DNA from: an uncultured Alphaproteobacteria bacterium | Lineage (GTDB): Bacteria > Pseudomonadota > Alphaproteobacteria > UBA7985 > CAJQQZ01 | Length of the DNA: 40,688 nt | NCBI GenBank assembly: GCA_905480575.1 | Contig: CAJQQZ010000065.1 | Coordinates: 1-40,688, forward strand | Direction of reading: 5' to 3' | Program-made: the position numbers and the translations under genes | In this document: piece after piece, positions 2,362-18,622 of the stretch | Layout: each line of letters opens with the position of its first letter | Position numbering within the stretch: position 1 is the first letter of the stretch | Notes under the pieces: generated by a model | Seen by the model: only the letters and a program-made list of their open reading frames with translations | What the model was told of the DNA's origin: nothing | Databases searched by the model: none

Positions 2362-2515
2362 TTAAACTCCAATGTATAAAGTTCCGCCATACATATCCCT
2401 TTGTGCGCTTATTACAATCACGCGAGGTGAATAGTTTGTTGCCAATATCTGTAACAATCGTCTATTGAATGATGCCAAAGAAGTCCTATGTGACTGTCAC
2501 TAGAACCCACCACCG

Positions 2516-3421: not shown

Positions 3422-4263
3422 ATCTTCTCATTTTTCGTCCAGTCCCAGGTTCCCTGGTCCCGCTCTTGAACCGCTTGTTTCCAACCCACGGTTTCTGAGC
3501 GGTTCTTGAAGTTCATGCCTTCCGGACTGTGGCGTGTAATGCCGTCGAAAAGAGTAGCGAGGCGTTGGGTGTTAAACAGTCCCATCGCCTCGATAGCCTG
3601 ATTAACAAGCATTTTATGCATCATTAGCTGGTTTACAGGCACTGTCGACATGCGCTCAGCCAGGGCTTCGACTTCGCTATCTAATTGATCTGCCGGAACT
3701 GCTTTGTGAATGAGGCCTATTCTTTCGGCTTCACGACCGTCAATCTTATCACCCGTCAACATCATGCGTTTTGCTTGCTCTGCACCAACACGATAAACCC
3801 ACATGGCAGTTGTCGGACATCCCCATACACGCGAAGGCATGTATCCGATCTGCGCGTTTTCAGCCATGATGATCATGTCACAACAAAGCGCTATGTCCGA
3901 CCCACCAGCAACGGCATAGCCATGCACCTTTGCCAACACAGGTCGGTGCGAATTCCACAGCGACATGAACAACTGCGTATTACGATGCATGAAGGCGTAG
4001 TCTTGCATTGGGTCCCAAGGCATAGATTGGACACCGAGATTGCCACCTTCAGCCTCTGCGAAAGCTTTCAGATCATAACCTGCACAAAAACCTTTCCCTG
4101 CCCCGCTTAGTATAATTACATGAACACCTGGATCGGAATTCGCTCGCTTAACGGCATCTGCCAGTTCATCAGGCAGATCAAGATCAATCGCGTTCATAGT
4201 CTCAGGTCGATTGAGTGTAATCCGGCCAATACGACCGTCTTTTTCATAAAGTACTTTCGACAT
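3418..4263 (-). CDS. enoyl-CoA hydratase/isomerase (crotonase) family protein
   Basis: The 281-residue crotonase-fold protein starts MSKVLYEKDGRIGRITLNRP, with a G-rich Shine-Dalgarno-like stretch upstream; an earlier GTG-type extension at 4290 is less likely. The CoA-binding and oxyanion-hole elements are visible: GAGKGFCAGYDL near 54-65 and HGYAVAGGSDIAL near 114-126. The two acidic residues that act in ordinary enoyl-CoA hydratases are not in place: the first region reads GGSDIAL, and the second reads GYMPSRVWG where PE-x-x-G is usual. It probably catalyses another crotonase reaction on an acyl-CoA rather than simple hydration. A CTAG at 3418-3421 supplies the stop codons of both this gene and the convergent yghU. 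Confidence 0.85.
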   Translation of the reverse strand: MSKVLYEKDGRIGRITLNRPETMNAIDLDLPDELADAVKRANSDPGVHVIILSGAGKGFCAGYDLKAFAEAEGGNLGVQSMPWDPMQDYAFMHRNTQLFMSLWNSHRPVLAKVHGYAVAGGSDIALCCDMIIMAENAQIGYMPSRVWGCPTTAMWVYRVGAEQAKRMMLTGDKIDGREAERIGLIHKAVPADQLDSEVEALAERMSTVPVNQLMMHKMLVNQAIEAMGLFNTQRLATLFDGITRHSPEGMNFKNRSETVGWKQAVQERDQGTWDWTKNEKI

Positions 4264-4351
4264 CTGAGTTACCCCCGCACAGTTGACCAATGCCTCCCTT
4301 CACACTACCTATTTCATGTGATTATTCTAGACAAAAAGTTAGAGTGAACTC

Positions 4352-5365
4352 ATGCCACTTGATGTTCTTGACTGCACGAATGAGTGCACCCCAAGTATAC
4401 CGACTGTCACGACCAACAAAGCTTGGGTGGCTAGCGATTTAACGTCGGCTGACTGGCTGGTTCCATTGGACGGTTCTTGCACGGCTGAAATCAGATCTCT
4501 CGCGCGATATATCGAGGCTAATCCGCTGGGCAGTCTACAAAGACGCCCAGAAGAACTGCCTCTAAGAGCTTGTGAATCTGCCGTCAAACGTCTCAAGGCC
4601 ATCCTTGATGACGGGGTAGGTTTTGCGGTTCTTGACAGAATGCCCATAGAAGAATTCAAACTTGCTACACTGGTCGAAATTTATTGGGTTTTGGGGCAAT
4701 TACTGGCGCCGCCCGTTGCACAAAAGTGGAACGGCGAGATGATTTATGAAGTACGCGACACGGGCAAAAAGTATGGTTATGGCGTTCGAGGATCTCATAC
4801 CAATGTCGAGCTGGTCTTTCACACCGATAACGCATTCGGACGGATGGTCCCTTACTATGTGGGCCTATTCTGTAAGAACACAGCCCTAGAGGGTGGCATC
4901 AGCCGATTTTGCTCCCTCTATACGGTTCATGACCGGATGCAAGAACAACATCCTGAGCTGTTAAAACGCCTTTACCAACCCATGCTCTTCGACCGCCAAG
5001 CAGAACATGCCGAAGGAGAGCCAAAAGTAACGCTGGCTCCGTTCTTCTCCTGGCGTGGCGATAAGCTCTTCGCACGAGCCAATACCTCCCTTGTACGAAA
5101 AGGATATCTGGTTGTGGATCAAGATATGGATACACAACTCAGTTCAGCTTTGAATGCGCTAGACCAAATATGTACGTCAGAAGATCTCTGGTACGAAGCC
5201 GCGCTAGCGCCCGGTCATATCCAGTATCTGAACAATCATGAACTGGGCCACTATCGAAGTGAATTCATTGACCATGAGGACGATGACAAGAAGCGCCACC
5301 TTTTCCGCCTGTGGCATCGTAATGAGGGTTCTGCTTCCTACGACGGCGTCATGTTCTCAGCCTAA
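4352..5365 (+). CDS. TauD/TfdA-family Fe(II)/2-oxoglutarate dioxygenase
   Basis: This 337-residue protein has the facial-triad pattern of TauD-like oxygenases: VFHTDNAF gives His157 and Asp159, and the distal histidine is His300 in ELGHYR, followed by Arg in KKRHLFRLWHR, which would hold 2-oxoglutarate. The substrate pocket cannot be read. The first 60 residues are a variable leader. The start ATG at 4352 has only a weak GAGTG upstream. It is divergent from the crotonase gene, and the PPOX flavoprotein gene follows 28 bases downstream in the same direction, so the two are probably co-transcribed. The product is likely a cytosolic hydroxylase of a small organic acid. Confidence 0.88.
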   Translation: MPLDVLDCTNECTPSIPTVTTNKAWVASDLTSADWLVPLDGSCTAEIRSLARYIEANPLGSLQRRPEELPLRACESAVKRLKAILDDGVGFAVLDRMPIEEFKLATLVEIYWVLGQLLAPPVAQKWNGEMIYEVRDTGKKYGYGVRGSHTNVELVFHTDNAFGRMVPYYVGLFCKNTALEGGISRFCSLYTVHDRMQEQHPELLKRLYQPMLFDRQAEHAEGEPKVTLAPFFSWRGDKLFARANTSLVRKGYLVVDQDMDTQLSSALNALDQICTSEDLWYEAALAPGHIQYLNNHELGHYRSEFIDHEDDDKKRHLFRLWHRNEGSASYDGVMFSA

Positions 5366-5393
5366 AAACGACAATCTGATTTCGAAAGCCAAC

Positions 5394-5996
5394 ATGCATA
5401 AAATCACGACGATCGAAGCCCTTGAAGACCTCTACGAAGCAGCAGTTCCAGCTTCAATCACCAAGGTTGCCAAGAAAGTCACACCTCTTTACCGGCAGTG
5501 GATAGAAGTATCACGCTTCACGATCCTTTCAACGGTTGGCCCGGAAGGAACGGATGCTAGCCCCCGCGGCGATGATGGGTCCGTTGTTCGTATCGCTGAT
5601 GCCCAAACGCTTCATCTCGCAGATTGGCGAGGCAACAACCGTTTTGATTCATTGCGGAATATCATTCGAGACAGTCGCGTAAGTCTGTTGTTTATGGTTC
5701 CTGGTTGCAACAATGTCGTCCGTGTTAACGGTAATGCCTTTTTGACCGACGATGCAGACCTAATCGCCAGCTTCGACAAAAACGGTAAGAAACCTAAGAC
5801 CGTCATCGTTATCCAGGTCCAAGAACTATATTTCCAATGCGCCAAGGCAATCATGAGATCTGCGATTTGGAAATCCGAAGACGAAAGCAAATCAGTCCCC
5901 ACCGCCGGTGATTTCATCAAAGAGATGAAAGCCGACTTCGATGGCAAAACTTACGATCAAGGCTACCCTGAGTACGCGAAAGCCCGCATGTGGTGA
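5394..5996 (+). CDS. PPOX-class FMN-binding flavoprotein (pyridoxamine 5'-phosphate oxidase-like)
   Basis: The 200-residue protein starts at the ATG of MHKITTIEALEDLYEAAVPA; a longer reading back to 5238 would run through the dioxygenase gene and is not credible. The split-barrel fold shows as SRFTILSTVGPEGTDASPRG (strands and flavin-phosphate contacts), then LADWRGNNRFDSLRNII and VSLLFMVPG, and ends with a region containing CAKAIMRSAIW. This layout fits the MSMEG_1061-type group of the pyridoxamine phosphate oxidase superfamily, which bind FMN (some use F420). Members often detoxify or reduce small molecules; the substrate is unknown. It follows the dioxygenase and is convergent with the hydrolase gene at 6057. 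Confidence 0.87.
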   Translation: MHKITTIEALEDLYEAAVPASITKVAKKVTPLYRQWIEVSRFTILSTVGPEGTDASPRGDDGSVVRIADAQTLHLADWRGNNRFDSLRNIIRDSRVSLLFMVPGCNNVVRVNGNAFLTDDADLIASFDKNGKKPKTVIVIQVQELYFQCAKAIMRSAIWKSEDESKSVPTAGDFIKEMKADFDGKTYDQGYPEYAKARMW

Positions 5997-6056
5997 GGCT
6001 CCGACCATTGATAAGAACCAAATCTCCATCGGGTTTGGCTAAACTGTAGATGACAG

Positions 6057-6905
6057 CTATTTTTCATCCCACCGGAAAGCGTTACCTTCCGCCGAAACTC
6101 TTCCGATTGACGGCAGACTAAAGTGGCTGCCCAGCACTGCGCATCCCTTCTCAGATGCGGTCTCAAGCAACTTTCTTCTCGAACGAACAGCTTGTTCTCC
6201 ATCTGCGTCGTAAAGGAAGTGCCAATCAGGCCGCCAACATTGCACAGTCGAATGCAAAGCATCACCGGTGATGATGGCTTCCCTGTCTCCACTCTTTAGC
6301 AGCACCGAGACGTGGCCAGGTGTATGTCCTGGCGTTGAGATCAGGGTGACGTGATCTCCTAAATTATGCTCACCTTCCACGAGTTCAACTTGTTCCGCTT
6401 CTATCACTGGCAACACGCTCTCAATATAGAGATTCCCGCCCTGCTCTCTGGAGAACTGTTCGTCAGCTGACGGCATCAAATAGCGTGCGTTCGGAAAGGT
6501 TGGAACCCATCGACCATCCTCTAACCGCGTGTTCCAACCAACATGGTCGCTGTGCAAATGAGTGCAGAGGACGTAGTCCACGTTCTCTGGTTTCACACCA
6601 GCTGCATGGAGGGCAGACATGAACCGATTACCTGACCGTTTATTCCAAGCGGGCGTCCCCGGGTTGGTCTTGTCGTTACCAACGCAACTATCAACCAAAA
6701 TCGTGTGTGAAGGTGTTTTCAATAGAAACCCTTGGACCGGAAGGATTAGATTGCCGGTGTCTGGACATAACTGCCCGGGAACCCTGTCATTGATGACGTC
6801 GCGGACGTTGTCACCTGCATTTGGGAACAGTTTTTCCGGAGGCAGGAACGGGCCATGTATCTCTAGAATACGCCAGACTTCAATTTCACCGATTCTACAC
6901 AGCAT
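6057..6905 (-). CDS. metallo-beta-lactamase-fold hydrolase
   Basis: The 282-residue protein carries the zinc-binding motif THLHSDHVGW (His116, His118, Asp120, His121), then STPGHTPGHVSVL, TGDALH and a final GSHF. This is the full ligand set of a binuclear MBL-fold enzyme such as a lactonase- or glyoxalase-type hydrolase. The early segment LLKTPSHTILVDSCVG is typical of the quorum-quenching-lactonase-like and AttM-like branches, but the motif alone does not give the substrate. No signal peptide is visible, so it is cytosolic. The start ATG at 6905 has AAGGA upstream at somewhat long spacing. It lies downstream of the RNA ligase gene in the same direction but is separated from it by a strong hairpin (6963-6997). 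Confidence 0.9.
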   Translation of the reverse strand: MLCRIGEIEVWRILEIHGPFLPPEKLFPNAGDNVRDVINDRVPGQLCPDTGNLILPVQGFLLKTPSHTILVDSCVGNDKTNPGTPAWNKRSGNRFMSALHAAGVKPENVDYVLCTHLHSDHVGWNTRLEDGRWVPTFPNARYLMPSADEQFSREQGGNLYIESVLPVIEAEQVELVEGEHNLGDHVTLISTPGHTPGHVSVLLKSGDREAIITGDALHSTVQCWRPDWHFLYDADGEQAVRSRRKLLETASEKGCAVLGSHFSLPSIGRVSAEGNAFRWDEK

Positions 6906-6962
6906 ACTTCACGCGCTTCCTTTACTATTAGACATTTAAAAATCTAGACAGTCACAAAGATA

Positions 6963-6997
6963 GATGATGGTTGCTCTTGATCAAGACAACCATCATC
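6963..6997 (-). terminator. large hairpin after the RNA ligase gene, probable terminator
   Basis: Arms GATGATGGTTG and CAACCATCATC (11 bp, perfect) enclose TCTTGATCAAGA, itself a perfect 12-base palindrome, so almost the whole 35 bases fold on themselves. On the minus strand it starts 13 bases after the ligase stop codon and is followed by TATCTTTGTG, a weak U-tract. Termination or 3'-end protection of the ligase mRNA is the simplest role. Confidence 0.6.
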
Positions 6998-7009
6998 AAA
7001 AGATTAGGC

Positions 7010-8128
7010 TTAAAGTTCAATTCCCATATTGGCATTCCATACCAAACCGTATAGCGGTCTGATCTTATCAACTCTAGTTTGGCGCTGTGCCGCCCATTTG
7101 AGGTGACCAATAATCGTCGCCCTGGCAGACTTTCCATCCAGCATAGCGAAAGCAGCATTTACGGATGCCTTATTCAGACTTGCTTTAGCTTTCATCGCAA
7201 AATCCTTCCTCTTTAACTTTCGATGAGCCTCATAGAAGTCCACAATCTCAGACTCGAGCCGGCCAATGGAAGACAAAACAAGACTTTGGTAAGCCAGTAC
7301 AGCTTCTGCCCGTTCGGGGAGCAAAAGCGGAATGACATCATCAACTACATTCTCGACAATCCACTCAAGAACATTCTTTTCTCTGTGGGAATACCCAAGT
7401 GCTCTGTGCCTAAGTGAATATGCCTCAGTTTTAATCTTTAGCCTTTGACCATTAGAGAACACGATAACGTAGCCCTCAATACCCTCCATTGCTCTAGTGT
7501 CAGACACAAAAGCATCGAGGTTATCTATACTGCCATGATGCCGTATTGCAGGTACTTTATAGCTCAACGCTATATCCTGAACCTCTTCCTCGCTAAGGTA
7601 TTCCCCGGAAAACATATGGCGTATGGCGAGCAAGGTAAGCTTGGTTTCATCATACTTCAGAACGACCCGGTTATCGGGGCTAGTAAATTCAAAGATTGGT
7701 GTAAAGCCTTTGATCATCCAATCTCGGCAAAGTTTAAGGACCGCATCGCTTGCAACCGTTAAAGCAGCCTCGGCTTGTTCCGTAACACCCATCCTGGCCA
7801 TAAAGACCAACCGCTCACCCAAAAAGGCAGGGTGGATCATAGATCCATCCAGTTTGTCAGCGATCAGGTGAGAATGAGACCAATCTGGCGGCAATGGCCC
7901 TTCCTTTTCACCGAGGTTGAAGAACTTGTGAAAAGGCCGTGCTATCAACTTGCCATTCAGGTCGAACTTTATCCCTCTAAATTGTAGATCCATTGGCGTT
8001 TCAAAGGTCTTGTTATCCATAAAATCGTAATCAACAACGATCCACTCTTGTCTTCTACTGACGAATATTCCGGACCCTTCCCTTATGTGGGGAAGAACGT
8101 CATCAATAGTTTCAATTTCTACTTTCAT
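7010..8128 (-). CDS. T4 RNA ligase 1-type (Rnl1) ATP-dependent RNA ligase
   Basis: The 372-residue protein has the nucleotidyltransferase motifs in order. Motif I is DKLDGS with the adenylated Lys92. An upstream RGIKFDLNGKLIARPFHKFF block is typical of the Rnl1 family. Motif III is FEFTSPDNRVV (146-156), motif IV EGIEGYVIVF (215-224) and motif V LKIKTEAY with Lys231 and Lys233. The length matches T4 Rnl1 (374 residues). Such enzymes activate a 5'-phosphate RNA end with ATP and join it to a 3'-OH, for example to repair cleaved tRNA anticodon loops. No polynucleotide kinase, phosphatase or anticodon nuclease gene is adjacent, and there are no phage genes around it. The start ATG at 8128 has GAGGAAAA upstream, directly after the T-tract of a terminator hairpin, so expression probably depends on readthrough or a nearby promoter. 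Confidence 0.9.
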   Translation of the reverse strand: MKVEIETIDDVLPHIREGSGIFVSRRQEWIVVDYDFMDNKTFETPMDLQFRGIKFDLNGKLIARPFHKFFNLGEKEGPLPPDWSHSHLIADKLDGSMIHPAFLGERLVFMARMGVTEQAEAALTVASDAVLKLCRDWMIKGFTPIFEFTSPDNRVVLKYDETKLTLLAIRHMFSGEYLSEEEVQDIALSYKVPAIRHHGSIDNLDAFVSDTRAMEGIEGYVIVFSNGQRLKIKTEAYSLRHRALGYSHREKNVLEWIVENVVDDVIPLLLPERAEAVLAYQSLVLSSIGRLESEIVDFYEAHRKLKRKDFAMKAKASLNKASVNAAFAMLDGKSARATIIGHLKWAAQRQTRVDKIRPLYGLVWNANMGIEL

Positions 8129-8140
8129 AATTTTTTCCTC

Positions 8141-8172
8141 AAAAAAAAACGCCTGAGAAAATCCCAGGCGTT
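8141..8172 (-). terminator. strong intrinsic terminator directly before the RNA ligase ribosome binding site
   Basis: Arms AACGCCTG (8148-8155) and CAGGCGTT (8165-8172) form an 8-bp stem with a short inner extension, followed on the minus strand by nine T residues (8149-8141). The next bases, GAGGAAAA, are the ribosome binding site of the ligase. The hairpin also lies 30 bases after the stop of the 40-residue small ORF. It can therefore end the sORF transcript or act as a leader attenuator for the ligase. Confidence 0.85.
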
Positions 8173-8202
8173 TCAAAATTCTACTGTCTGATAAAGACTA
8201 GA

Positions 8203-8325
8203 TTAGAACAGAACCTCCTGGCAGCGATTGTAAGCACCAACATATTGGCAATTGCCCACAGCAAAGCGCTCAGCCGATTTTAGGGCTGATTGTGTCGATA
8301 CTAGATTGTCAAATCGCTTGAGCAT
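8203..8325 (-). CDS. 40-residue small protein of unknown function
   Basis: An intact ORF of 40 codons plus TAA fills the gap between the SerC-SerA gene and the RNA ligase gene. The product starts MLKRFDNLVS, has a mixed, soluble, partly helical composition (TQSALKSAERFAVGN) and ends with two cysteines in NCQYVGAYNRCQEVLF. It is bounded upstream by an in-frame TAG and the terminator of the serine gene, and downstream by a terminator of its own. The ribosome binding site is weak (GGAA, far upstream). It lies in the leader of the RNA ligase transcript. It has no runs of one amino acid, so a classic attenuator peptide is not evident. Function unknown; it might be a real small gene or the coding part of a small RNA. 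Confidence 0.5.
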   Translation of the reverse strand: MLKRFDNLVSTQSALKSAERFAVGNCQYVGAYNRCQEVLF

Positions 8326-8411
8326 TAGATTTAAGATCTATTCCGTTAACTTGGACGCGGCTTCTAGAGAGTCGCAGAATATAAGTAAAGACATTTTTGC
8401 ATGCCTTAAAC

Positions 8412-8450
8412 GAGAAAACCCGGCTCAACTCTCGCCAAACCGGGTTTCTC
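8412..8450 (-). terminator. intrinsic terminator after the SerC-SerA fusion gene
   Basis: Arms AAACCCGG (8416-8423) and CCGGGTTT (8440-8447), extended by GAG/CTC, enclose a 16-base loop. On the minus strand the second arm leads into TTTTCTCGTTT. The hairpin lies about 23 bases after the stop codon at 8473, as expected for the end of that transcript. Confidence 0.75.
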
Positions 8451-8472
8451 TTATTTCGATTGGTTCGTAAAC

Positions 8473-11439
8473 TTACCCGCCGTAAGGGCCTTGCAGACCT
8501 AACTTCTCCATCAAATTCGCATAGATATTTGAGTTCAAAATCAACCGGTTACCATAGCGTTCAATAATTTCTTGCTGACGGTCTGGGTCATTTGTAGAGG
8601 CCAACGCCGCCCAAATAGCAGCCGCTGTTTCAGCTGATTGACGAAGGCCAGCTACAGAATCTGAATCAGCTAGAGCAGAGCCCAAAGCGTTCGACGTCAC
8701 TTTACCAACACCATTAACTGTAATGGCACCAGCATTCGAGAATCCTTCAGGAAGATCACCTTTTAGGTTCATCACTGACTTATACTGGATGCAGTCGAAG
8801 ATTTGATCAACGGCTTGCTTGGCACCTTCTACACGAGAAAAGTGCTCTGTATCCGCCGCAGCATGTGGCAGTAGTTCCAACTTACCTGGGTGGTTTTTCT
8901 CTACCGCAAGGTACGGCACCATCGGACCGGAAAGTTCGCCGGTTTCTGCGTTTTTGAACAAGTCAGCGTCAATGGCGGCATAGCGAACTTTGCCAGATGC
9001 CAAAGCTTTGTCTAAGGCATCGCAGTCTATCACTTCGCCACGGTCGTAGTTAACGACGATTGCACCGTCATTCAGCTGACTTAGGACCTCTTCATTCACA
9101 AGGTTGGCGTTTGCAAACACACCGTTGTTTACAGGCCCTAGACCCGTGTGCGGGGAAAGAACATCTGCTCCTTTAGCGGCTTCAGCAGCCGTTGCAGCAT
9201 ATTCAAAGCCCTCAGATTCAATCCATTGTTGGTGAGCAGGACGAGCATAGATTGTGACATTCATGCCGAAGGATTTAGCGATTTTCGCAAGCTCACGACC
9301 AATGTTACCATAACCAATGACTGCGAGCTTTTTGCCTTCAAGCTTCGTTGTCGGATACTCACATAGGTTCTTGCCAGTGTCGAAGTCACCAGCGCAAACA
9401 AGATCATGCATCCTTTGAACATCAAGATCAGGACAAACCTTCAGCAGGCCTTTCATTGCCATTTGGGCCGTTGCACGGCTGTTAAAGCTAGGCGTGTTCA
9501 TCAATGGCGCAACACCACCGTCACCGTTTCCACCACCCCAGGAGGCAGAACCCATGTTACCAGTACCCGCGCCAATGCGAACACCGCCACTTGTGAAAAC
9601 AGATTCCTCAGGAAGGAATGTCGCCGCTACGATCGTCGCGTCATACTGACCTTTGTCCGTGATCGGCAGCAATTCGTCACGTGTGCTCAAGCTTGGTTCA
9701 TAGAAGAAATGAACACCAGCCGGTAACTCACCGCCGTCATGGGCACCGTCATGGAACTGACCGCCCTTAGCTTCGACATGAGCTTTGACTTCACTGTGAT
9801 CTGGATTGCCATCAGCATCAAATTTCAGGCCGACGAGATCCGCGACCAGTACTTTGTAAGCTTTGTTTGGATCATCCTGACGCGCACGGCCACCTGTGGC
9901 TGTGGCCGAGGCTTCAAAGGTTTCACCTAGTGCCGCCAGCTCTTCCTCAAGAACTACGATCTTTGCTCTCAAGTAAGCATATTCGAGGTTATCAAGCAGT
10001 GCAGTGATGTCTGAAACAGGGCGAATACCACCAATCCAAGCTCTATAATCACCTGGTGTGCCAGGGAATGCATTTACATAACGAGCGACATCCATTCCGG
10101 CTTCGCGGTCACCATTGGGATGAGTGAGTCCTTCGTAAGCCAACAGCTGTTTAGAACGTGCGATAATGCGATCATGGATGCCACGGTCTGTAATACCAGG
10201 ATCATTGACTCTCAACAAAGTCACTGCAGCTCCGCGACGATCTTCGTCAGCAACACCAAGTTCCAAAAGAGGATGCGCATCAATCCAATCGTTGATTTCC
10301 TTGCGGTTTTTGATGGAGCGTTCGTTCAATACAGAAACAGATCCAATAATGCGTTCCGCACGCAACAATCCAAATGTGGTTTCTGCGAAAGCCAGGGTCG
10401 AGTAGGTATTGATAATACCGCCCAGCATCTTGTCTTCTGCTGGATCATAAATTGGTCCGAGACCTACCGTCGACTTGCTTGATAGAGGACGCTTTGGATC
10501 TGTTGGTACTGCCATTTTCAGCTGGCGTGGTATCGCCCAAGCTGGATCAGCCACATTGCGGTCAATCATTTCAAGGACTTGTGGCGTACAAGAAACAACG
10601 AAGTAACCGGAGATGCCGCCAATTGCTTTTTGGAACGGCATGAACATACAGCACTTGTTGGTTACCTCACGAACAACCTTTTCACCCCAAGGCATGGCAC
10701 CCAGCATAGAAGTCGCATCGATAACGGCATGGTGGTTGGCTGGGTCACGGTCAATCCACTGCAGCAGATTGCCGATATCTTCATTCGTGTAGGTTGTAGC
10801 ACCGGTCGTTTCATGACCAACACCAACAAAAAGCTTAACACCCATTTCGACAAGTTTATCAGCTGATGGGATCGTGCCCTCCGCATCGGTAAAATGAACG
10901 CGGGAAACATCACCGTTTGCCGCATACTTGTGCATCTCAACAATTTGCGAGCCCCAGGATTGACGAAAGAAACCGCCCGCCATTGCGGCTTCGCTTTCTG
11001 GAGCTGGCGTGTCGACAAATACGTGTTGGCTTGGATCATTGGCATTCACCATGTGAAGAACACAAACGGTAAAGCCGGAGTGTCCACCACCTAGGCCAAC
11101 AGCCATCTTGTTCTTTTTGGGAAATTCAAAATAACGGTGAATTTCGCGCATCATATCGCCAAGGATGGCATCGGCTGGATAGCCACGATGCATTGAGCGG
11201 CCGATTTCTGCAGCGGTGAAAGGACCAAGGTCTTCACCTGTGTCACTGACTTTACGGTAAGTCTTCTCAAGCCATGCTTCGAATTCAAATTTTAAAAGGC
11301 GCGATTCAGCCTCATCTGCTGTCAAATCAGTGATCGGTCCAACACCAAAAAACTGATTTGTTGTTCTTGCTGGCATTCCGCCAGATGTTGCTTTGATCGC
11401 TGCTTCCCGCTGCGCCTTTAGTTCCTGAACCGTCGCCAT
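8473..11439 (-). CDS. SerC-like aminotransferase fused to SerA-like 2-hydroxyacid dehydrogenase
   Basis: This single 988-codon frame has two enzyme halves. Residues 1-490 are a class V (phosphoserine) aminotransferase: opening FFGVGPITDL, GLGGGHSGF near 115, HETTGATTY near 209, DATSMLGAMPWGE near 241, and the PLP lysine Lys271 in MPFQKAIGG. Residues 525-960 are a D-3-phosphoglycerate-dehydrogenase-like enzyme: YDATIVAATFLPEE, the nucleotide fold VIGYGNIGREL (707-717), NYDRGEVID with Arg800, and His859 in LLPHAAADT. No ACT domain follows; the last 90 residues are an unassigned tail. Together the halves would turn 3-phosphoglycerate into phosphoserine, the first two steps of serine synthesis. 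This is inferred from domain families; other 2-hydroxyacid/amino-acid pairs are possible. AAGGA precedes the ATG, itself just after a terminator-like leader hairpin. Confidence 0.9.
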   Translation of the reverse strand: MATVQELKAQREAAIKATSGGMPARTTNQFFGVGPITDLTADEAESRLLKFEFEAWLEKTYRKVSDTGEDLGPFTAAEIGRSMHRGYPADAILGDMMREIHRYFEFPKKNKMAVGLGGGHSGFTVCVLHMVNANDPSQHVFVDTPAPESEAAMAGGFFRQSWGSQIVEMHKYAANGDVSRVHFTDAEGTIPSADKLVEMGVKLFVGVGHETTGATTYTNEDIGNLLQWIDRDPANHHAVIDATSMLGAMPWGEKVVREVTNKCCMFMPFQKAIGGISGYFVVSCTPQVLEMIDRNVADPAWAIPRQLKMAVPTDPKRPLSSKSTVGLGPIYDPAEDKMLGGIINTYSTLAFAETTFGLLRAERIIGSVSVLNERSIKNRKEINDWIDAHPLLELGVADEDRRGAAVTLLRVNDPGITDRGIHDRIIARSKQLLAYEGLTHPNGDREAGMDVARYVNAFPGTPGDYRAWIGGIRPVSDITALLDNLEYAYLRAKIVVLEEELAALGETFEASATATGGRARQDDPNKAYKVLVADLVGLKFDADGNPDHSEVKAHVEAKGGQFHDGAHDGGELPAGVHFFYEPSLSTRDELLPITDKGQYDATIVAATFLPEESVFTSGGVRIGAGTGNMGSASWGGGNGDGGVAPLMNTPSFNSRATAQMAMKGLLKVCPDLDVQRMHDLVCAGDFDTGKNLCEYPTTKLEGKKLAVIGYGNIGRELAKIAKSFGMNVTIYARPAHQQWIESEGFEYAATAAEAAKGADVLSPHTGLGPVNNGVFANANLVNEEVLSQLNDGAIVVNYDRGEVIDCDALDKALASGKVRYAAIDADLFKNAETGELSGPMVPYLAVEKNHPGKLELLPHAAADTEHFSRVEGAKQAVDQIFDCIQYKSVMNLKGDLPEGFSNAGAITVNGVGKVTSNALGSALADSDSVAGLRQSAETAAAIWAALASTNDPDRQQEIIERYGNRLILNSNIYANLMEKLGLQGPYGG

Positions 11440-11457
11440 GCCTATTAATCCTTGCTC

Positions 11458-11498
11458 AAAAAAATGAGGACAAAAGCCAAAGAGCTTCTCATCCTCAT
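11458..11498 (-). promoter_or_regulatory. terminator-like leader hairpin before the SerC-SerA gene (candidate attenuator)
   Basis: On the minus strand, ATGAGGA (11498-11492) pairs with TCCTCAT (11470-11464), with a small inner AAGC/GCTT stem, and is followed by seven T residues. The ribosome binding site AAGGA and the ATG come 5 to 20 bases later. No gene ends just upstream (the caspase gene has its own hairpin at 11622-11664), so this looks like a leader terminator controlling the serine gene. A conserved leader RNA, the serC motif, has been described before serC genes in alphaproteobacteria; whether this sequence belongs to it is not known. Confidence 0.6.
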
Positions 11499-11621
11499 GT
11501 CAAAATTTTTGCGGAACGGGGGAAAGCGTAAAACAGGCCACTGAATACGCGCTTTTTCCGACCGGCGGATAATAGAAAAATCAATTTTTGGAGACGAACT
11601 AAAAACGCCCTTTAGTAGTCA

Positions 11622-11664
11622 GGTTACGCCGCGAATGCTTTTCTAAAGCCTTTTCGGCGCAACC
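11622..11664 (-). terminator. inverted repeat after the caspase gene, possible terminator
   Basis: GGTTACGCCG (11622-11631) pairs with CGGCGCAACC (11655-11664) with one mismatch, and there is an inner GCTT/AAGC stem. It starts 6 bases after the caspase stop codon. The minus-strand T-run follows only about 16 bases later, so intrinsic termination would be imperfect. Confidence 0.5.
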
Positions 11665-11670
11665 TTTCTC

Positions 11671-13185
11671 TTAGTTGATCTTGAAGAGCTTTTTGAACGT
11701 GCGAACTGGCTTTTTCAGCGGGTTGTTTCCAGATTTAGATTTTTTATTCGATCTAACTTTGGCAACACAAGGACGTGGTTCTTCTTTCTTTAATTGTTCG
11801 AGCAATTTTTGAGAAAATCCTCTGGCCCAATCGGGTCCACCAGTTTGGCGGTAGCCGCTAAGTGCATTTTTGGTTTTTGCTCCGGCTACACCATCAGCTT
11901 TACCAGCAGGGCAGCCTATCCGGTTTAATTCTGTCTGGACCGCTTTGACAAGCTCCTTGCCTGTTAGGATTTCGCCAGTACCGGTGGCCATTGACTGCTC
12001 GTTCGCTGCACTTTCTTCCTCAACAGCATCTTTCCACAGTTTGGCAACTTCGGTGCTGTTATCCACCTCAGGATTTGCAGCGATGGCTTCTAGGACCGGT
12101 TCAGTTTTAACTATCGTCGTTGTTTCTTCAACGACGGCTTCTGGCTTAGTCTCAACAGCAACGTCGGCAGTGGCCTTGTTCTGAGCTGCAATTAGCTTTT
12201 GACGATAGAGGATCGCTAATTTAGCAAACTTTCCATCTGGGAATTCTTCCAAGAACAGATCAAACAAAGCAACATCTTGGCTTTCACGAACAGATTCCCA
12301 GTAGGAAATTTCTAAATCCTGTTCCTGTGAGCCGTTGTCATTTTCTGGCACCGTTGTTGTGTTCTGAATACTTGCAACTTCAGTCTTAACTTCTTGCTTC
12401 AGATAGAATTCGGTGGGAAGGCGGATCAATAGTTCAGGGTTTTGGCTGCCATTGGATTTCTCAATCACTTCACCACTGACCTTTCGGAACAAGCGACCAA
12501 TTTCTAAACCAGGCTCTTCCAAGTAGGCCAACAGACTCTCCGTATAAGGACTGTTATCGCCGTCACCATCGGCCGCGATTTCTCCTGGTGCCGCTGAATA
12601 GGCAAAGACGACACCATTCTTGTCTGTTTCGATTGGCGCGAGGCCGCGGCCTATTAATGCAGATCTAGAGTCACCCAACGATTTCTTCAACTTGTCTGAC
12701 AAGGGATTGTTACGACAAGCATCAAGGACGGTGATCGCGATGTCGGATTTTTGTTCCATCAGTTCAACGACGGAACTTACATCCAAAGTCTCGTAGCGAA
12801 CGGATATCACGTCCTCCAGAGACGAATCAGTCGCGAGTAAAAAGTTACCGCCATCGATTTGGATACCGTGGCCAGCATAATAAAAGAATGCGGCTTCTGC
12901 TCCGTCCAGCTTTTTTGAAAAAGCACGTACCGTCGCAACCATCTCTCGCTGGTCAAGATCTATTCCCTGCACGACTTCAAAGCCCAACCGTTCAAGGCTT
13001 AATGAAACAGCTTTGGCATCGTTCGTTGGATTGGTCAGTGCTGGAGTATAAAGGTAGTCACTGTTACCAATGACAAGTGCTACGCGTTTGGCCTCTGCCA
13101 AACTCATCGTCGATAGTATCGTAAGTAACACCAACGTCAAACGTGGTGTAATCGAAATAGATAAAATTCTACGTAAAAACAACAT
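11671..13185 (-). CDS. secreted caspase-like cysteine protease (peptidase C14 family)
   Basis: The 504-residue protein starts at an ATG with GGAGG 7 bases upstream; a TTG 18 bases earlier lies in that site and is unlikely. An N-terminal hydrophobic segment ending SLAEA looks like a signal peptide. Residues 33-240 are a caspase-hemoglobinase fold beginning KRVALVIGNSDY, with His106 in YYAGHG and Cys157 in LDACRNNP, so the catalytic dyad is intact. A segment near 291-327 (SYWESVRESQDVALFDLF, FPDGKFAKLA) is a helical repeat common after such domains. After an acidic low-complexity linker, 410-445 resembles a peptidoglycan-binding domain (LVKAVQTELNRIGCPAGKAD). The C-terminus is very basic. It is transcribed away from the pseudo-caspase/cyclase operon, with a CRP-like site between them. 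Confidence 0.9.
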   Translation of the reverse strand: MLFLRRILSISITPRLTLVLLTILSTMSLAEAKRVALVIGNSDYLYTPALTNPTNDAKAVSLSLERLGFEVVQGIDLDQREMVATVRAFSKKLDGAEAAFFYYAGHGIQIDGGNFLLATDSSLEDVISVRYETLDVSSVVELMEQKSDIAITVLDACRNNPLSDKLKKSLGDSRSALIGRGLAPIETDKNGVVFAYSAAPGEIAADGDGDNSPYTESLLAYLEEPGLEIGRLFRKVSGEVIEKSNGSQNPELLIRLPTEFYLKQEVKTEVASIQNTTTVPENDNGSQEQDLEISYWESVRESQDVALFDLFLEEFPDGKFAKLAILYRQKLIAAQNKATADVAVETKPEAVVEETTTIVKTEPVLEAIAANPEVDNSTEVAKLWKDAVEEESAANEQSMATGTGEILTGKELVKAVQTELNRIGCPAGKADGVAGAKTKNALSGYRQTGGPDWARGFSQKLLEQLKKEEPRPCVAKVRSNKKSKSGNNPLKKPVRTFKKLFKIN

Positions 13186-13221
13186 CTTACTGCCTCCAAG
13201 CAACAGGATTGTGATAACCTT

Positions 13222-13262
13222 AGTTTAAACAGATGACCAGTGAGATAAGTGATTAAGATCAC
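13222..13262 (-). promoter_or_regulatory. candidate CRP-dependent promoter: cAMP-CRP-like operator plus -10 element for the caspase gene
   Basis: On the minus strand TGTGA-TCTTAA-TCACT (13263-13248) matches the CRP consensus TGTGA-N6-TCACA at 9 of 10 positions. A -10-like TAAACT lies at 13227-13222. If transcription starts near 13215, the operator centre falls at about -41, the class II activator position, and the leader to the ATG is about 30 bases. The operator is also upstream of the divergent operon that encodes an adenylate cyclase. Start site and binding are inferred. Confidence 0.5.
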
Positions 13263-13372
13263 ATAACTTTAGAGAAAACTGAACTTTAATGATGATTATT
13301 GAAGGAATGTTAAGAAAAAGCGACGTAACTACTTGTTGACTGCTTTATTCAGTGCATCATTTCTTCCATCTT

Positions 13373-13390
13373 CTGTAGCCAATGCTACAG
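13373..13390. repeat. short perfect inverted repeat before the pseudo-caspase gene
   Basis: CTGTAGC and GCTACAG are separated by CAAT, 36 bases before the ATG. It could be an operator or a leader hairpin. A TTGACT -35-like box is at 13336-13341, but no good -10 follows at standard spacing. Confidence 0.4.
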
Positions 13391-13426
13391 TTGCAAGTGG
13401 AGATGAGAAGGTAATTGGGGAAACAA

Positions 13427-14911
13427 ATGAGACACAACGGCTTGTTCGCACTGTTTTGCGTGCTTCTGCTCATGTCAGGTTTAAGTAATAGAACAGCGGT
13501 CGCAAAAGAGCTCCACGTTATAGCGGTTGGGATCAATGCCTATGAAAACCTCCCTTCTCTTAAAGCCGCTCAAGAAGACGCGATACAAGTAGCGCGTCTG
13601 TTTCATTCAACTGGTGCCGCAAGCGTCAGGCTCCTTCTGAACAAAGACGCTACCTTGGACAGTCTCTCAGCCACATGGACCAATGCAATTGAAGAAGCAT
13701 CTGCTGGCGATCATCTCGTTTTTTATTTCGCAGGCCATGGCACAACGGAACCTGAACACCTCAAGGCATCTGAGCCTGACAGGCTCGACGAAACTTTGCT
13801 CCTAACTGGTTTTGAACCAGACGTTGCTCAAACTGAACGCCTTCCCGATGACTTGCTTCACCAATGGCTTAAGCTAGCGAATGAAAAGAATCTAAGCGTT
13901 ACACTGCTACTCGATACGAGTTTTCACAAAGCCAAGCGTGAAATCCCTGGATTGCCCTCCAGGGGGCTAACTCTGCGCAACATTGAGTGGCAACCGCACC
14001 CTCAACTCGTACAATCTCAATCTGGCGATAGATTACTCGATGGCATCCAGTACATAACCGGTGCCATTAAGGGTGACTCTCTCTTTGAGTTTGATCAGGA
14101 ATCTCGCTTAGGCAGCTCGCTAGTATCGGCTCTTGTCTCGGTTCTTGATTGCACACCGGGCTCCAGCATTTCTTATAATAATTTTGCGTTCAGTCTCTAC
14201 CAAGGAGTCTTTGAAGCTGTTGAAAGTCACCAGCACTTATCAATCCACCCTCAAACTGCCGACATACAAAACTTCCTTGCCTGCACTTCACCTGCAGAAA
14301 CTAAGTTGTTGGAAGAAGTCAGTTTATCAAGCGATAGCTCAAAGTTACCCGAACTCGCCGGGGTCCAAACGGTTAACTCCTTTGTGACATCTGATTATCA
14401 CTGGCTGAGCAAATCTGGTCTTCTTATGGACAAAAAAGGTACCATAGTTGCAAAGATCGCTTCACCCGAAGACGTTCAGTCCGCGCTAGCGCACTATTTG
14501 GAAAGAGTAGAATTGGCGACAACCGAGAACGCTAGCGATTTAATTGGGTTGTCACCCAGTCGTTCAAGCTACCGAGCAGGTGATGAACTAGCAATTCAGA
14601 TGCGCTTTCCTGAGAACACCATTAACTCGGTCATCCATATTAACTCGCAAGGCCATGCTAGCTTCTTGGTTAATTCACGCACGAGCTACGACACACTGAT
14701 TGAAGAACTAAAAGTATCGGTGACCAAACCCTTCGGCAACGAAACTTTAGTTCAGATTTCTTCATCGTTGGAAATGCCAGATAAGAAGATGTGGAGTGAA
14801 ATTCACAGAGATGAACTTACCCTGTCAACACTTCTAGAAAAACTTGATCGCATCAAATCCAATACAATTCAGATTGATGTCAAAACCATATTAACTCTGG
14901 AGAAACCATGA
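13427..14911 (+). CDS. secreted pseudo-caspase (caspase fold, catalytic Cys replaced by Ser), DUF4384-like C-terminus
   Basis: The 494-residue protein starts at ATG 13427 (GGGG 6 bases upstream) with a signal peptide ending near TAVAKE. Residues 28-250 form a caspase-like fold: ELHVIAVGINAYENLPSL, with the catalytic-type His104 in VFYFAGHG. At the cysteine position the sequence is LLLDTSFHK, giving Ser165 (AGT, 13919-13921) where DxC is required. The protein is therefore predicted to lack cysteine-protease activity and to act as a binder, decoy or regulator; a serine nucleophile cannot be excluded. Residues about 375-470 (LSPSRSSYRAGDELAIQMRF, NSQGHASFLVNS) resemble the DUF4384 beta domain that often follows secreted caspases. 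The stop overlaps the next start by four bases (ATGA), which indicates translational coupling. Confidence 0.85.
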   Translation: MRHNGLFALFCVLLLMSGLSNRTAVAKELHVIAVGINAYENLPSLKAAQEDAIQVARLFHSTGAASVRLLLNKDATLDSLSATWTNAIEEASAGDHLVFYFAGHGTTEPEHLKASEPDRLDETLLLTGFEPDVAQTERLPDDLLHQWLKLANEKNLSVTLLLDTSFHKAKREIPGLPSRGLTLRNIEWQPHPQLVQSQSGDRLLDGIQYITGAIKGDSLFEFDQESRLGSSLVSALVSVLDCTPGSSISYNNFAFSLYQGVFEAVESHQHLSIHPQTADIQNFLACTSPAETKLLEEVSLSSDSSKLPELAGVQTVNSFVTSDYHWLSKSGLLMDKKGTIVAKIASPEDVQSALAHYLERVELATTENASDLIGLSPSRSSYRAGDELAIQMRFPENTINSVIHINSQGHASFLVNSRTSYDTLIEELKVSVTKPFGNETLVQISSSLEMPDKKMWSEIHRDELTLSTLLEKLDRIKSNTIQIDVKTILTLEKP

Positions 14912-15561
14912 AACCCGTCATCCTGTTTTCTGCCCTACTTGCCCTATCTATTTCTGCCAGTTCCCACGACAGTAAAGCGGCGGATGAAACGCCGGTCGGA
15001 TTGGTGGAAGAACTCGCCGATATCCAACTGGACATCGAAGAATTCGACTACGTCTATGAAGGGCAACAGATCAATTTGGGTCAAGAAGGTGAACTGGTTT
15101 TATCCTATTTCTCTTCCTGCCGGCTGGAACGTCTTAAGGGCGGACAGGTCGAAGTTGGGCAAAAATCTAGCCAAACAACCGGCGAACTGTTGGATCAGCA
15201 AACCATGGAATGCGACCAAAGCCAACTTGTTGCCAGTAACGAAGACACTGAATCAGCTGTATTCGTTTTTAGAGGCAGCAAAGACGATGAAGGAAGTGGC
15301 ATACGCCTCTATTCAACTTTGCCCGCAATCAAGGTGACAAGACCGATAGCCTACGCCCAAATAAATCGCATGGATTTAGATGGTGAGAATTGGCTCATAT
15401 CATTGAAGCCTGGTCTAAACGATCTGGCAAAACAGGCAATCAACTTAGAACCCGGTGGAACTTACCAACTCGTCATGAATGAAGAGCGCCTCACTTTCAC
15501 AATTGCGCGTACCGCTCTCGCTACCGACAATACTGTTCTCGGCAGAGTCATCATTTACTAG
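14908..15561 (+). CDS. secreted protein, FecR-like / unknown, in the pseudo-caspase operon
   Basis: The 217-residue product has a clear signal peptide (MKPVILFSALLALSISASS, cut near SKAA). The mature part is mostly beta-strand. The stretch YVYEGQQINLGQEGELVLSY and CRLERLKGGQVEVGQ resembles a FecR-like periplasmic domain (gel-like repeats of value-x-G-strand), followed by a second beta region (PGLNDLAKQAINLEPGGTYQ) of ligand-display type. Two cysteines (CRLE and MECDQ) could form a disulfide. No enzyme motif is visible. It overlaps the pseudo-caspase stop by four bases, and the cyclase gene starts 13 bases after it, so all three are one operon. The FecR link is tentative. Confidence 0.7.
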   Translation: MKPVILFSALLALSISASSHDSKAADETPVGLVEELADIQLDIEEFDYVYEGQQINLGQEGELVLSYFSSCRLERLKGGQVEVGQKSSQTTGELLDQQTMECDQSQLVASNEDTESAVFVFRGSKDDEGSGIRLYSTLPAIKVTRPIAYAQINRMDLDGENWLISLKPGLNDLAKQAINLEPGGTYQLVMNEERLTFTIARTALATDNTVLGRVIIY

Positions 15562-15574
15562 GGCATCTTGAATT

Positions 15575-17443
15575 TTGGCCAGCCTCAGAAATCAAAAGTC
15601 GATAAATGGTGGTGTTGTTATCATCATTGCCCTGGTTACAGCTTTGTTATCGGGGCCCATTTCTGATCGTTTATCCGGCATTTCGTTGGATCTGCTTTTT
15701 CTATCTCGATCTTTTGTCAATCAAGCCGATGACAAAGAGTTCAAAAGTGAAGACTTCGCCCTCGTCATCATTGACGAAGAAACCTACCGCACACCACCTT
15801 TTGAGCAAAGCCCCTTGGTGATGTGGACCCCTGCTATCGCAGCTGTCTTGGGTGACATACAAAAAGCCAAACCAAAGATGGTGGGAATGGATTTGATTTT
15901 CCCGACCTCTGTTGAAGCTTTGAGCCCCAACTACGACCGCCCGCTTCTGAAAGTTTTACGACGTGGCCGTAACGCCAAAAACCTAGTGATTGGCAAATTC
16001 GATCATCCAACCAAACCACTGAAGCCATCAAAGGGGCACGCCTTTGCAATTGGCCCTGGCAAGAACGTCCATGCAATTAATTTTCCGCCAGATCCAGACT
16101 CGATCATAAGGCGCGATAAATCACATTTTGACCGAACCGATGGCAGTTATCAAACATCTTTGAGGTTTGAGATGGCTAAGCGATTGAAACCAGATTTGGA
16201 GCTTGCCGATGAAACCGTCTATCTAAACTTCGATCGACACTCTTTGAAGGCAGAGACCTGGTCACTTTCTGATCTCTACACATGCCATCAGGATGGAAAC
16301 CAAGCAGCATATGACAAAGCCTTTAAAGACAAAATCGTACTGTTTGGGGTGGCCTTGGACGTTGAAGACCGAAAACTCAGTTCAGCACGGTGGCTAGCAG
16401 CACGCGGTCTAGAAACCAATCTGAAGCGTTGTACGCTACCAGTCAGAGAAGGTCTCAGCTGGCATAAAGAAAAGCTATCAACCATTCCCGGTGTCTTCCT
16501 CAATATCCAAGGCGTTAAGGATTGGTTGAATGGTAACCACATCCTCCCCTTGCCCCTATGGCAGCTCGCTTTGATTGTCTTTGTGAGCGCGGCATTGGTG
16601 GCTTTATTTTCAATCGGATCTGCCCTTTCTAGAGGCCTGACAGTTTTCCTCATTGCCATGATCCTTTGGGTAGTCTCGGCTTTCGTTTTTCTGGGCCTCA
16701 ACACACTATTACCGCTCCTGACCGGCCTAATTCTGACGGCATTAGCCTTCGTGGCCAGCCAAATCTACCGCCTTTTCGTGACAGAGAGAGAACGCAATCA
16801 AATTCGTTCAGCCTTCTCGCGCTATATGTCCGGTCCTCTTCTCGACCAAATGGTTGGCTCCGGCAAAATGCCGGAACTCGGTGGAGAGAAGCGTGAGGTA
16901 ACCATATTCTTCTCCGATATTGCTGGCTTTACGACTTTGTCAGAAAAGTCGAGTGACGAAGAAACTATTCAACGCCTCAACTCCTACTTCAACGCTATGT
17001 CTGAATGTGTTCAGCGTCACGGCGGGATAGTTGACAAGTTCATCGGCGATTCAGTCATGGCTATTTTCGGTGCACCGTTCGATCAACCTGATCATGCTAT
17101 CCAAGCTGTTGAAGCAGCCAAAGACTGTTTGTCTATGCTGGAGGAACATGAACTAGGCGCACTATTCCCAACAAGGATAGGCATTGCTTCTGGAAGCGCC
17201 ATTGTCGGCAACGTTGGCTCTGATCTACGTTTTGACTATACCGCTATTGGCAACGTCGTTAACACCGCCTCACGCCTTGAAAGCAGCAACAAAGAAACGG
17301 GAACACAGCTCCTTGTCCACGCCGACACGGCTAAACTGTACAATCAAACGGCAAGACACGCAGATGAACTCATCAAAGCTGGGGAATTGCAATTGAGAGG
17401 CCAAGAGGCTGTGACAGAAGTTTATACTCTCAAGTCAAAGTAA
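15575..17443 (+). CDS. CHASE2-domain class III adenylate cyclase
   Basis: The 622-residue membrane receptor opens with one N-terminal transmembrane helix (13-28), a periplasmic CHASE2 sensor (about 35-325, with FALVIIDEETY, MVGMDLIFP and KDKIVLFGVA), then three transmembrane helices (328-398) and a cytosolic class III cyclase domain (435-620). Catalytic residues are present: metal Asp448 in FFSDIAGF and Asp492 in FIGDSVMAIF, adenine-specific Lys488 and Asp554/Thr556 in DYTAIGN, and Asn563 and Arg567 in NTASR. cAMP is the expected product. The start is TTG at 15575 because no ATG lies in frame before the first helix. The protein would sense a signal in the periplasm, where its two secreted operon partners reside. 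Confidence 0.92.
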   Translation: MASLRNQKSINGGVVIIIALVTALLSGPISDRLSGISLDLLFLSRSFVNQADDKEFKSEDFALVIIDEETYRTPPFEQSPLVMWTPAIAAVLGDIQKAKPKMVGMDLIFPTSVEALSPNYDRPLLKVLRRGRNAKNLVIGKFDHPTKPLKPSKGHAFAIGPGKNVHAINFPPDPDSIIRRDKSHFDRTDGSYQTSLRFEMAKRLKPDLELADETVYLNFDRHSLKAETWSLSDLYTCHQDGNQAAYDKAFKDKIVLFGVALDVEDRKLSSARWLAARGLETNLKRCTLPVREGLSWHKEKLSTIPGVFLNIQGVKDWLNGNHILPLPLWQLALIVFVSAALVALFSIGSALSRGLTVFLIAMILWVVSAFVFLGLNTLLPLLTGLILTALAFVASQIYRLFVTERERNQIRSAFSRYMSGPLLDQMVGSGKMPELGGEKREVTIFFSDIAGFTTLSEKSSDEETIQRLNSYFNAMSECVQRHGGIVDKFIGDSVMAIFGAPFDQPDHAIQAVEAAKDCLSMLEEHELGALFPTRIGIASGSAIVGNVGSDLRFDYTAIGNVVNTASRLESSNKETGTQLLVHADTAKLYNQTARHADELIKAGELQLRGQEAVTEVYTLKSK

Positions 17444-17464: not shown

Positions 17465-18622
17465 TTAGCGAGCAAGATTTGGGACAAGGAACTCTGACAA
17501 CTCCTCAACGGCTGAACATCCAATTTGACCCATTGTCGCTCTAAATTCTTCTTTAAGTATCGTTGCAACGTGGTCAGCTCCGCTGTTGCCCACGACACCC
17601 ATACCAAACATGAACGCACGCCCTAACAAAACAAAGTCAGCACCTTTCGCTAGCATTCTTGCAATATCTAGGCCTGTACGAACACCACCGTCAGCCAACA
17701 ACGTCATGTCCTCGCCAACAGCGTCTCTCATCAACGGTAGAACATCGATCGCCGTCTCCGCCGCGTCTAACTGACGACCGCCATGGTTGGAAACAACGAT
17801 GCCATCAACGCCAACGGCTTTACAAAGCCGGGCTTCCTCAGGGTCGAGAAGCCCTTTCACCATGAGTTTTCCATCCCAATTGTTCCGAAACCACTTTACG
17901 CGTTCAATAGAGACGTGCCCCTCAATAAGATCATTTAGGTAACTGCCCAATTCACTGAGTTTAAGGCCTTTCGGCATGTAGGGTTTTATGTTTCTGAATT
18001 CGGGCACGCCATGACGTAACGTTGCCATCGCCCATCTGGGCCGGGCAAGAATTTGAGCAAGAGTTTGCAAGCTGAATTCTGGAGGTACAGAAAGCCCATT
18101 CTGCACGTTCTTTCGGCGGTTTGTATTTGTTGGAATATCAACCGTAATGATCAGTGCTTTTGCACCTGCAGCCTTCGCTCGCCGCAACATATCTAGATCA
18201 ATCTCGTTATCAATGGTTGCATATTGTTGATACCAATGACAGTCTCCTGCCGCCTTTTGGATATCTTCAACCGACGATGTCGAAAACCCAGACAAAGCAA
18301 AGGGTAAATTGTGCTTTTTGGCTGCAAGAGCCATATGTTCTGGCGCTTTTGGCCAAGTTAGCCCTGTTAAACCAACAGGAGCCACCCCAAAGGGTGCTGA
18401 ATAAGTTTCACCAAACAAGCTCGTTGATAAATCAGGGTGATTAGCCTTGTCCGAAAGGTACCGCGGTCGAAGTTTCACCGACTTGAGAGCATCTAGATTG
18501 TCTTGAAGATTGTGCTCATCTCCAATCCCGCCAACTACGTAATCAAAGGCAAATTTTGGGACAGCTTTTTCGAAGCCAGCTTCTAGATCCCACACGGATG
18601 GATAGTGTTTTTTATAATTCAT
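17465..18622 (-). CDS. FMN-dependent alpha-hydroxy-acid oxidase (LldD-like), second copy
   Basis: This 385-residue protein has the complete family signature: APVGLTG near 81, WYQQY near 130, MVKGLLDPEEA near 254, SNHGGRQLD with His280 and Arg283, ADGGVRTGLD, and LLGRAFMFG. Compared with the copy at 245-1381 the motifs are canonical, so an L-lactate- or glycolate-type substrate is plausible. The start ATG has AGGG upstream. The gene is downstream of a large membrane protein gene in the same direction (65-base gap) and convergent with the cyclase gene (21-base gap). No lactate permease or regulator gene is adjacent. Confidence 0.9.
   Translation of the reverse strand: MNYKKHYPSVWDLEAGFEKAVPKFAFDYVVGGIGDEHNLQDNLDALKSVKLRPRYLSDKANHPDLSTSLFGETYSAPFGVAPVGLTGLTWPKAPEHMALAAKKHNLPFALSGFSTSSVEDIQKAAGDCHWYQQYATIDNEIDLDMLRRAKAAGAKALIITVDIPTNTNRRKNVQNGLSVPPEFSLQTLAQILARPRWAMATLRHGVPEFRNIKPYMPKGLKLSELGSYLNDLIEGHVSIERVKWFRNNWDGKLMVKGLLDPEEARLCKAVGVDGIVVSNHGGRQLDAAETAIDVLPLMRDAVGEDMTLLADGGVRTGLDIARMLAKGADFVLLGRAFMFGMGVVGNSGADHVATILKEEFRATMGQIGCSAVEELSEFLVPNLAR

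Follow-up and report, generated by a model that had tools for sequence, protein, structure and literature searches.

We analysed a contig of 40,688 nucleotides from an uncultured Alphaproteobacteria bacterium (GenBank CAJQQZ010000065.1, assembly GCA_905480575.1; hereafter the window), which carries a locus where a membrane adenylate cyclase with a CHASE2 domain is encoded together with two caspase-fold proteins, CASP and PSEUDO, and a small protein that we call FECRL (Table 1). PSEUDO, FECRL and the cyclase gene form a tightly packed operon, with a 4 bp overlap between the PSEUDO stop and the FECRL start and 13 bp between FECRL and the cyclase, and CASP is divergent to it. With moderate confidence, we regard the locus as a module that signals from the periplasm to the cytoplasm through cyclic AMP (cAMP), built on the CHASE2 cyclase and FECRL, recurrently coupled to clan-CD peptidases and subject to feedback by cAMP. 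The explanation draws on the gene content, the states of the catalytic dyads, the conserved co-occurrence of the genes and the enrichment of a regulatory motif. Its strongest elements are that the FECRL-cyclase pair is near-obligate in this cyclase subfamily, that this core pair is recurrently coupled to clan-CD peptidases, beyond chance neighbourhood, and that the module is probably controlled by CRP-cAMP.

Table 1. Positions of the features of the locus in the window, of the second module of the genus and of the Bradyrhizobium lablabi array.
Sequence	Feature	Positions	Strand	Basis
Window	CASP, predicted secreted caspase (C14, paracaspase/orthocaspase type)	11671..13203	minus	Pfam C14
Window	Divergent promoter region between CASP and the operon	13204..13414	no strand	
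Window	CRP-type (cAMP receptor protein) palindrome AGTGATTAAGATCACA	13248..13263	no strand	motif match
Window	PSEUDO, predicted secreted metacaspase-type pseudo-caspase	13415..14911	plus	Pfam C14 and alignment
Window	FECRL, partner family of the cyclase, presumably periplasmic	14908..15561	plus	no Pfam match
Window	CHASE2 receptor-type class III adenylate cyclase	15575..17443	plus	Pfam CHASE2 and Guanylate_cyc
L061 (G000:C152), source genome	Second module	1635-6554		
L064 (G001:C359), sister species	Second module	8998-13834		
L262, B. lablabi	Active caspase	4943-7399		
L262, B. lablabi	Pseudo-caspase, His to Tyr and Cys to Leu	7411-8982		
L262, B. lablabi	FECRL	9118-9798		
L262, B. lablabi	Cyclase	9821-11980		

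The conservation of the neighbourhood was followed in two sets of genomes, which overlap in some members, so that their counts are not fully independent. In the class-wide search FECRL was found in 52 of 387 genomes; the cyclase lies immediately 3' of it on the same strand at 41 of the 64 FECRL loci, and a clan-CD peptidase is encoded within 7 kb at 24 of them. The scan of named genomes used a query alignment of the CHASE2 region with no FECRL sequence in it, and FECRL stands directly 5' of the CHASE2 cyclase at 70 of the 71 loci with enough sequence. A gene for a CHAT or caspase protein, both of clan CD, is found within 7 kb of 32 of 73 pairs in this set. The gene next upstream of the pair on the same strand, which is the position of PSEUDO in the window, is for a TPR-CHAT protein at 10 loci and for a caspase at 11. 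In 34 genomes, the 7 kb around FECRL take in 11 of 53 CHAT genes where 0.19 would be expected, an excess of about 58-fold, and 3 of 106 C14 genes where 0.39 would be expected. The earlier note on this DNA, which proposed a locus for signalling from proteolysis to cAMP, had made its proposal depend on the genes being conserved together in relatives, and these counts leave it standing. As for the full set of four genes, it recurs in B. lablabi but is rare, the usual state among relatives being an intact CHAT or caspase gene or the lack of any peptidase. Three further loci (L188, L208 and L214) carry TPR-CHAT and caspase genes in tandem, 5' of FECRL and the cyclase.

A second line of evidence comes from the promoter region that CASP and the operon share, where the palindrome AGTGATTAAGATCACA has a core, GTGAT-TAAG-ATCAC, that is a perfect inverted repeat. 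It agrees with TGTGA-N6-TCACA in 9 of 10 positions, is the sole match in the window with at most one mismatch, and lies about 50-70 bp from CASP and about 160 bp from PSEUDO. Perfect GTGATN4ATCAC sites number 10 in the 4.03-Mb genome, and the chance of finding one in the divergent gap is about 5e-4. Although the motif was chosen after the site in the window had been seen, the sites of the relatives are a separate test: sites with at least 9 of 10 matches stand upstream of 23 of 71 non-redundant clusters of relative operons, compared with a mean of 0.5 and a maximum of 2 clusters of 71 for 29 permuted half-sites used as a control, and with 8 of 360 other gene starts of the same loci (Fisher P about 1e-13). 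In the operons L054, L135 and L140, the half-sites are conserved and the spacer varies. The divergent promoter thus appears to hold a CRP-type operator, the module is probably under CRP-cAMP control, and the site, with its enrichment in relatives, lends the predicted link to cAMP independent support. Scans for sigma-70 promoters and for terminators gave matches no more often than chance, and the divergent region holds no convincing sigma-70 match.

The same site bears on the main rival, in which the direction is reversed: FECRL and the cyclase would be the real signalling unit, and the caspases its output or unrelated proteases of the envelope that have only the promoter region under cAMP-CRP control in common with it, with cAMP controlling the proteases and not the other way round. 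CASP is indeed a separate divergent unit, the CRP-type site is nearer to it than to PSEUDO, and at most loci of Azospirillum and many of Bradyrhizobium no peptidase accompanies the core pair. In many relatives, however, the peptidase gene is the first of the same tight operon, with gaps of about 10-130 bp, and in the window PSEUDO overlaps FECRL, so that production of the peptidase together with the sensor seems to have been selected. On balance we consider the reversed direction rather unlikely.

The earlier note had the gene set and its coordinates right, as judged by open reading frames and Pfam, and its description of an intact His-Cys caspase divergent to the operon agrees with our analysis. 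CASP matches Pfam Peptidase_C14 with 133 bits (cut-off 21.4), and both catalytic residues fall in the profile columns, as His112 and Cys163 counted from the TTG start, or His106 and Cys157, the numbering of that note, counted from the ATG at residue 7. Its C-terminus has a weak PG_binding_1 match (22.2 bits, under the cut-off of 23), and its PDB matches are to the MALT1 paracaspase (E 3e-12). The match of PSEUDO to C14 is lower, at 29.3 bits against the same cut-off; aligned with the intact full-length homologues L175 and L176, it keeps His108 and has Ser169 in the column of the Cys. That residue is Ser165 when counted from the ATG at residue 5, as the note had it. The Cys column was not taken from a mixed alignment with paralogous caspases, where the Cys region is misplaced. 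The C-terminal region of PSEUDO aligns with the DUF4384-like ends of its homologues, whose own DUF4384 matches (E 0.022 for L175 and 1.9e-4 for L176) are under the curated cut-off. Its profile matches PDB metacaspases (E 2e-17) where that of CASP matches a paracaspase, and therefore the pair is not a recent duplication. By fold and substituted catalytic residue, PSEUDO classifies as a predicted pseudo-orthocaspase or pseudo-metacaspase and, with a metacaspase fold but no catalytic Cys, it is probably a non-catalytic binding or regulatory subunit. The assertion that all products other than the cyclase have signal peptides held in part: on inspection by eye each of the three N-termini resembles a signal peptide, but the 19-residue hydropathy threshold is passed by that of the caspase alone. 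The source genome has a third caspase-like gene (L063, G000:C21, 5841-8015), in which the His is kept and the Cys is replaced by Ala (IFDTAWR), and which also encodes two bacterial SH3 domains.

Apart from the window, all the peptidases scored beside FECRL-cyclase pairs keep the His-Cys dyad except one, and the window is therefore a pseudoenzyme variant of the arrangement. PSEUDO is besides a single sequence, for which no sister orthologue was recovered. It could accordingly be read as a Cys-to-Ser variant that arose by accident or is decaying, or as a weak serine-type peptidase, in an otherwise ordinary module of CHAT or caspase, FECRL and cyclase. We find this improbable. The PSEUDO frame of 498 codons is intact and in translational overlap with FECRL, and the one exception among the relatives, B. 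lablabi SZCCT0009, has an independent pseudo-caspase at the same position of an array that encodes active caspase, pseudo-caspase, FECRL and cyclase on one strand. This array appears to be an independent version of the four-part set, arranged differently. Homologues of PSEUDO in another family (L062, L180 and L181, from G092, G192 and G271) have lost both His and Cys and, in three species, adjoin a gene for an active trypsin-caspase, a trypsin-caspase-DUF4384 fusion; these double-loss pseudo-caspases evolve under purifying selection, with ratios of nonsynonymous to synonymous substitution rates (dN/dS) of 0.14-0.27 (0.14 between two species).

FECRL had been labelled FecR-like in the earlier note, a label that our sequence comparisons reject. 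The 48 family members include no match to Pfam FecR (PF04773), even at E<=1, and no relation emerged from an HHalign comparison with 19 alphaproteobacterial FecR domains, which gave a probability of 0.6% and an E-value of 0.09, the positive control of this comparison reaching 6e-38. The protein of 217 amino acids comprises two beta domains and two conserved Cys (71 and 102). Its AlphaFold2 model has a mean confidence (pLDDT) of 83; no fold in the PDB matched it at E <= 0.001, all matches in a second look had Z<8, and the C-terminal part resembles fibronectin/Ig folds at middling Z only. We therefore treat FECRL as a member of an unnamed family of predicted two-beta-domain proteins.

The cyclase matches Pfam CHASE2 with 72.3 bits and Guanylate_cyc with 84.7 bits. 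Hydropathy places a transmembrane segment at about residues 7-33, followed by the CHASE2 domain, a transmembrane region at about 322-403 and the catalytic domain at 439-619, in which alignment identifies the metal-binding Asp and the Asn/Arg motifs. It is thus a CHASE2 class III adenylate cyclase, as had been proposed, with cAMP as its predicted product. The PADLOC models of PycC, the cyclase of Pycsar anti-phage systems, match this domain with a best E of 1e-26, and the PADLOC caspase model gives weak matches (E 1e-7 to 7e-11), which would suit a defence system with the caspases as death effectors. The PycC matches, however, reflect the class III fold in common, the cyclase is a transmembrane CHASE2 receptor whereas the caspases look secreted, and different families retain the FECRL-cyclase pair as a signalling operon that has CRP-type sites. 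Because domain scans of the operon and the flanking genes revealed no Pycsar effector of the kind activated by cyclic nucleotides, we reject this explanation as highly improbable.

The ends of the locus are conserved between the source genome and a sister species (G001), where one contig ends inside CASP, another starts inside the cyclase gene, and the outer neighbours are the same. The CASP orthologue at the contig end is 71% identical and the cyclase orthologue 82%; the ratio of nonsynonymous to synonymous differences (pN/pS), in comparisons whose synonymous sites are saturated, is 0.21 for the C-terminal part of CASP and 0.15 for the cyclase. The FECRL stretch of the sister species lies inside the assembly gap. 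A further search for FECRL, covering ten relatives within the order, gave no match. The genus also has a second, paralogous module of caspase, cyclase and FECRL2, divergent in the sister species to a gene for a cyclic nucleotide-binding protein, and we count this module in favour of the signalling module proposed here. Its copy in the source genome has a split caspase frame and a cyclase with an in-frame TGA, both frames being open in the sister species; decay or assembly error could be the cause. The divergent neighbour of the second module's caspase (L276, G001:C36, 10302-11009) combines a cyclic-nucleotide-binding domain with a hydrophobic N-terminal part, and elsewhere (L065, G011:C114, 5538-6749) a gene that joins a FECRL2-type protein to a DUF4384 domain stands divergent to one for a CHASE2 cyclase.

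Taken as a periplasm-to-cytoplasm cAMP module, the locus could work as follows. FECRL, as an obligate partner that we infer to be periplasmic, would sense a stimulus or present it to the CHASE2 domain of the cyclase through physical contact. In many relatives, a periplasmic TPR-CHAT lipoprotein or a caspase would set the activity of the cyclase by processing a protein ligand, the sensor or its partner; the direction and sign of this proteolytic step we likewise infer. In the source genome PSEUDO would fill the peptidase position of the operon, with the intact CASP encoded divergently from a promoter region common to both, where binding of CRP to the intervening site would give cAMP a feedback on the two units. 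Several points weigh against this scheme. About half of the FECRL-cyclase pairs, including most of those of Azospirillum, have no peptidase nearby, and the peptidase is therefore dispensable for the core pair. The CRP-type site is a match in sequence only. The PSEUDO orthologue was not recovered in the sister species because the stretch falls in the assembly gap, and the AlphaFold2 model of PSEUDO, made without homologues, is unusable (pLDDT 39). In Sinorhizobium meliloti, moreover, the FecR-domain and TPR neighbours are dispensable for signal perception (PMC5498481).

In the papers available to us we found no account of this module, and queries for CHAT with CHASE2 and for operons of caspase with adenylate cyclase returned nothing relevant. 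One of the two nearest known systems is the CyaD1/CyaD2/CyaK-Clr pathway of S. meliloti, a precedent in favour of the proposed module, which also joins alphaproteobacterial CHASE2 receptor cyclases to a CRP-family regulator: a protein signal acting via an outer-membrane protein raises cAMP, which acts on Clr (PMC13001267, PMC5498481). That pathway includes periplasmic/FecR-domain and TPR-type genes, and Clr acts on the neighbours of cyaD1, but its descriptions mention neither a caspase nor a CHAT peptidase (PMC5498481, PMC13001267), and smc02177 has a real FecR domain according to the paper, whereas FECRL has none. The other, a CHASE2 cyclase cluster of Campylobacterota, likewise combines the cyclase with conserved genes for envelope partners, interpreted as a single signalling pathway, but with a phosphodiesterase and FecR-domain and TPR proteins, a partner family different from FECRL and no clan-CD peptidase reported (PMC9239204). 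PSEUDO resembles the pseudo-orthocaspases of Alphaproteobacteria and Cyanobacteria in having a caspase p20 domain whose dyad is substituted; Ser commonly replaces Cys in these proteins, in which Alphaproteobacteria are rich, and some carry DUF4384, but the papers draw no link to a cyclase operon and do not contain the word "cyclase" (PMC6426788; PMC3501461). A Trichodesmium protein also brings a caspase domain and a CHASE2 receptor into one system, although there the two are fused in a single protein, whose caspase is predicted to be cytoplasmic, and a cyclase is lacking (PMC3501461). It is possible, and we propose it tentatively, that the locus represents an undescribed family of envelope-to-cAMP pathways, in which a periplasmic CHAT protein, a caspase or an active/pseudo pair gates a CHASE2 cyclase via FECRL within a loop that CRP-cAMP closes at the promoter of the operon.

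The surroundings of the locus in the window hold a gene for a T4 RNA ligase 1-like protein on a bacterial chromosome (7010-8176; RNA_lig_T4_1 76.6 bits and a weak match to the Rnl1 C-terminal domain). The protein of 988 amino acids encoded at positions 8473-11439 carries a D-2-hydroxyacid dehydrogenase domain in its C-terminal part, and its long N-terminal part resembles an aminotransferase by eye; the copy of the sister species is 91% identical. A gene for a dehydrogenase dependent on flavin mononucleotide (17465-18622) stands between the cyclase and a membrane protein, and is absent there in the sister species (L050).

The role of bacterial caspases, and the frequent loss of catalytic residues in those of Alphaproteobacteria, is an open question. 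Gene order across many genera ties these proteins to a defined output, cAMP, and to a defined partner, and their function should therefore be readable with a simple cAMP or CRP reporter. CHASE2, a domain whose input mechanism is poorly known, gains a near-universal, presumably periplasmic partner in one large subfamily. If the proposed module is real, it would constitute a circuit from proteolysis to a second messenger that operates outside the cytoplasm.

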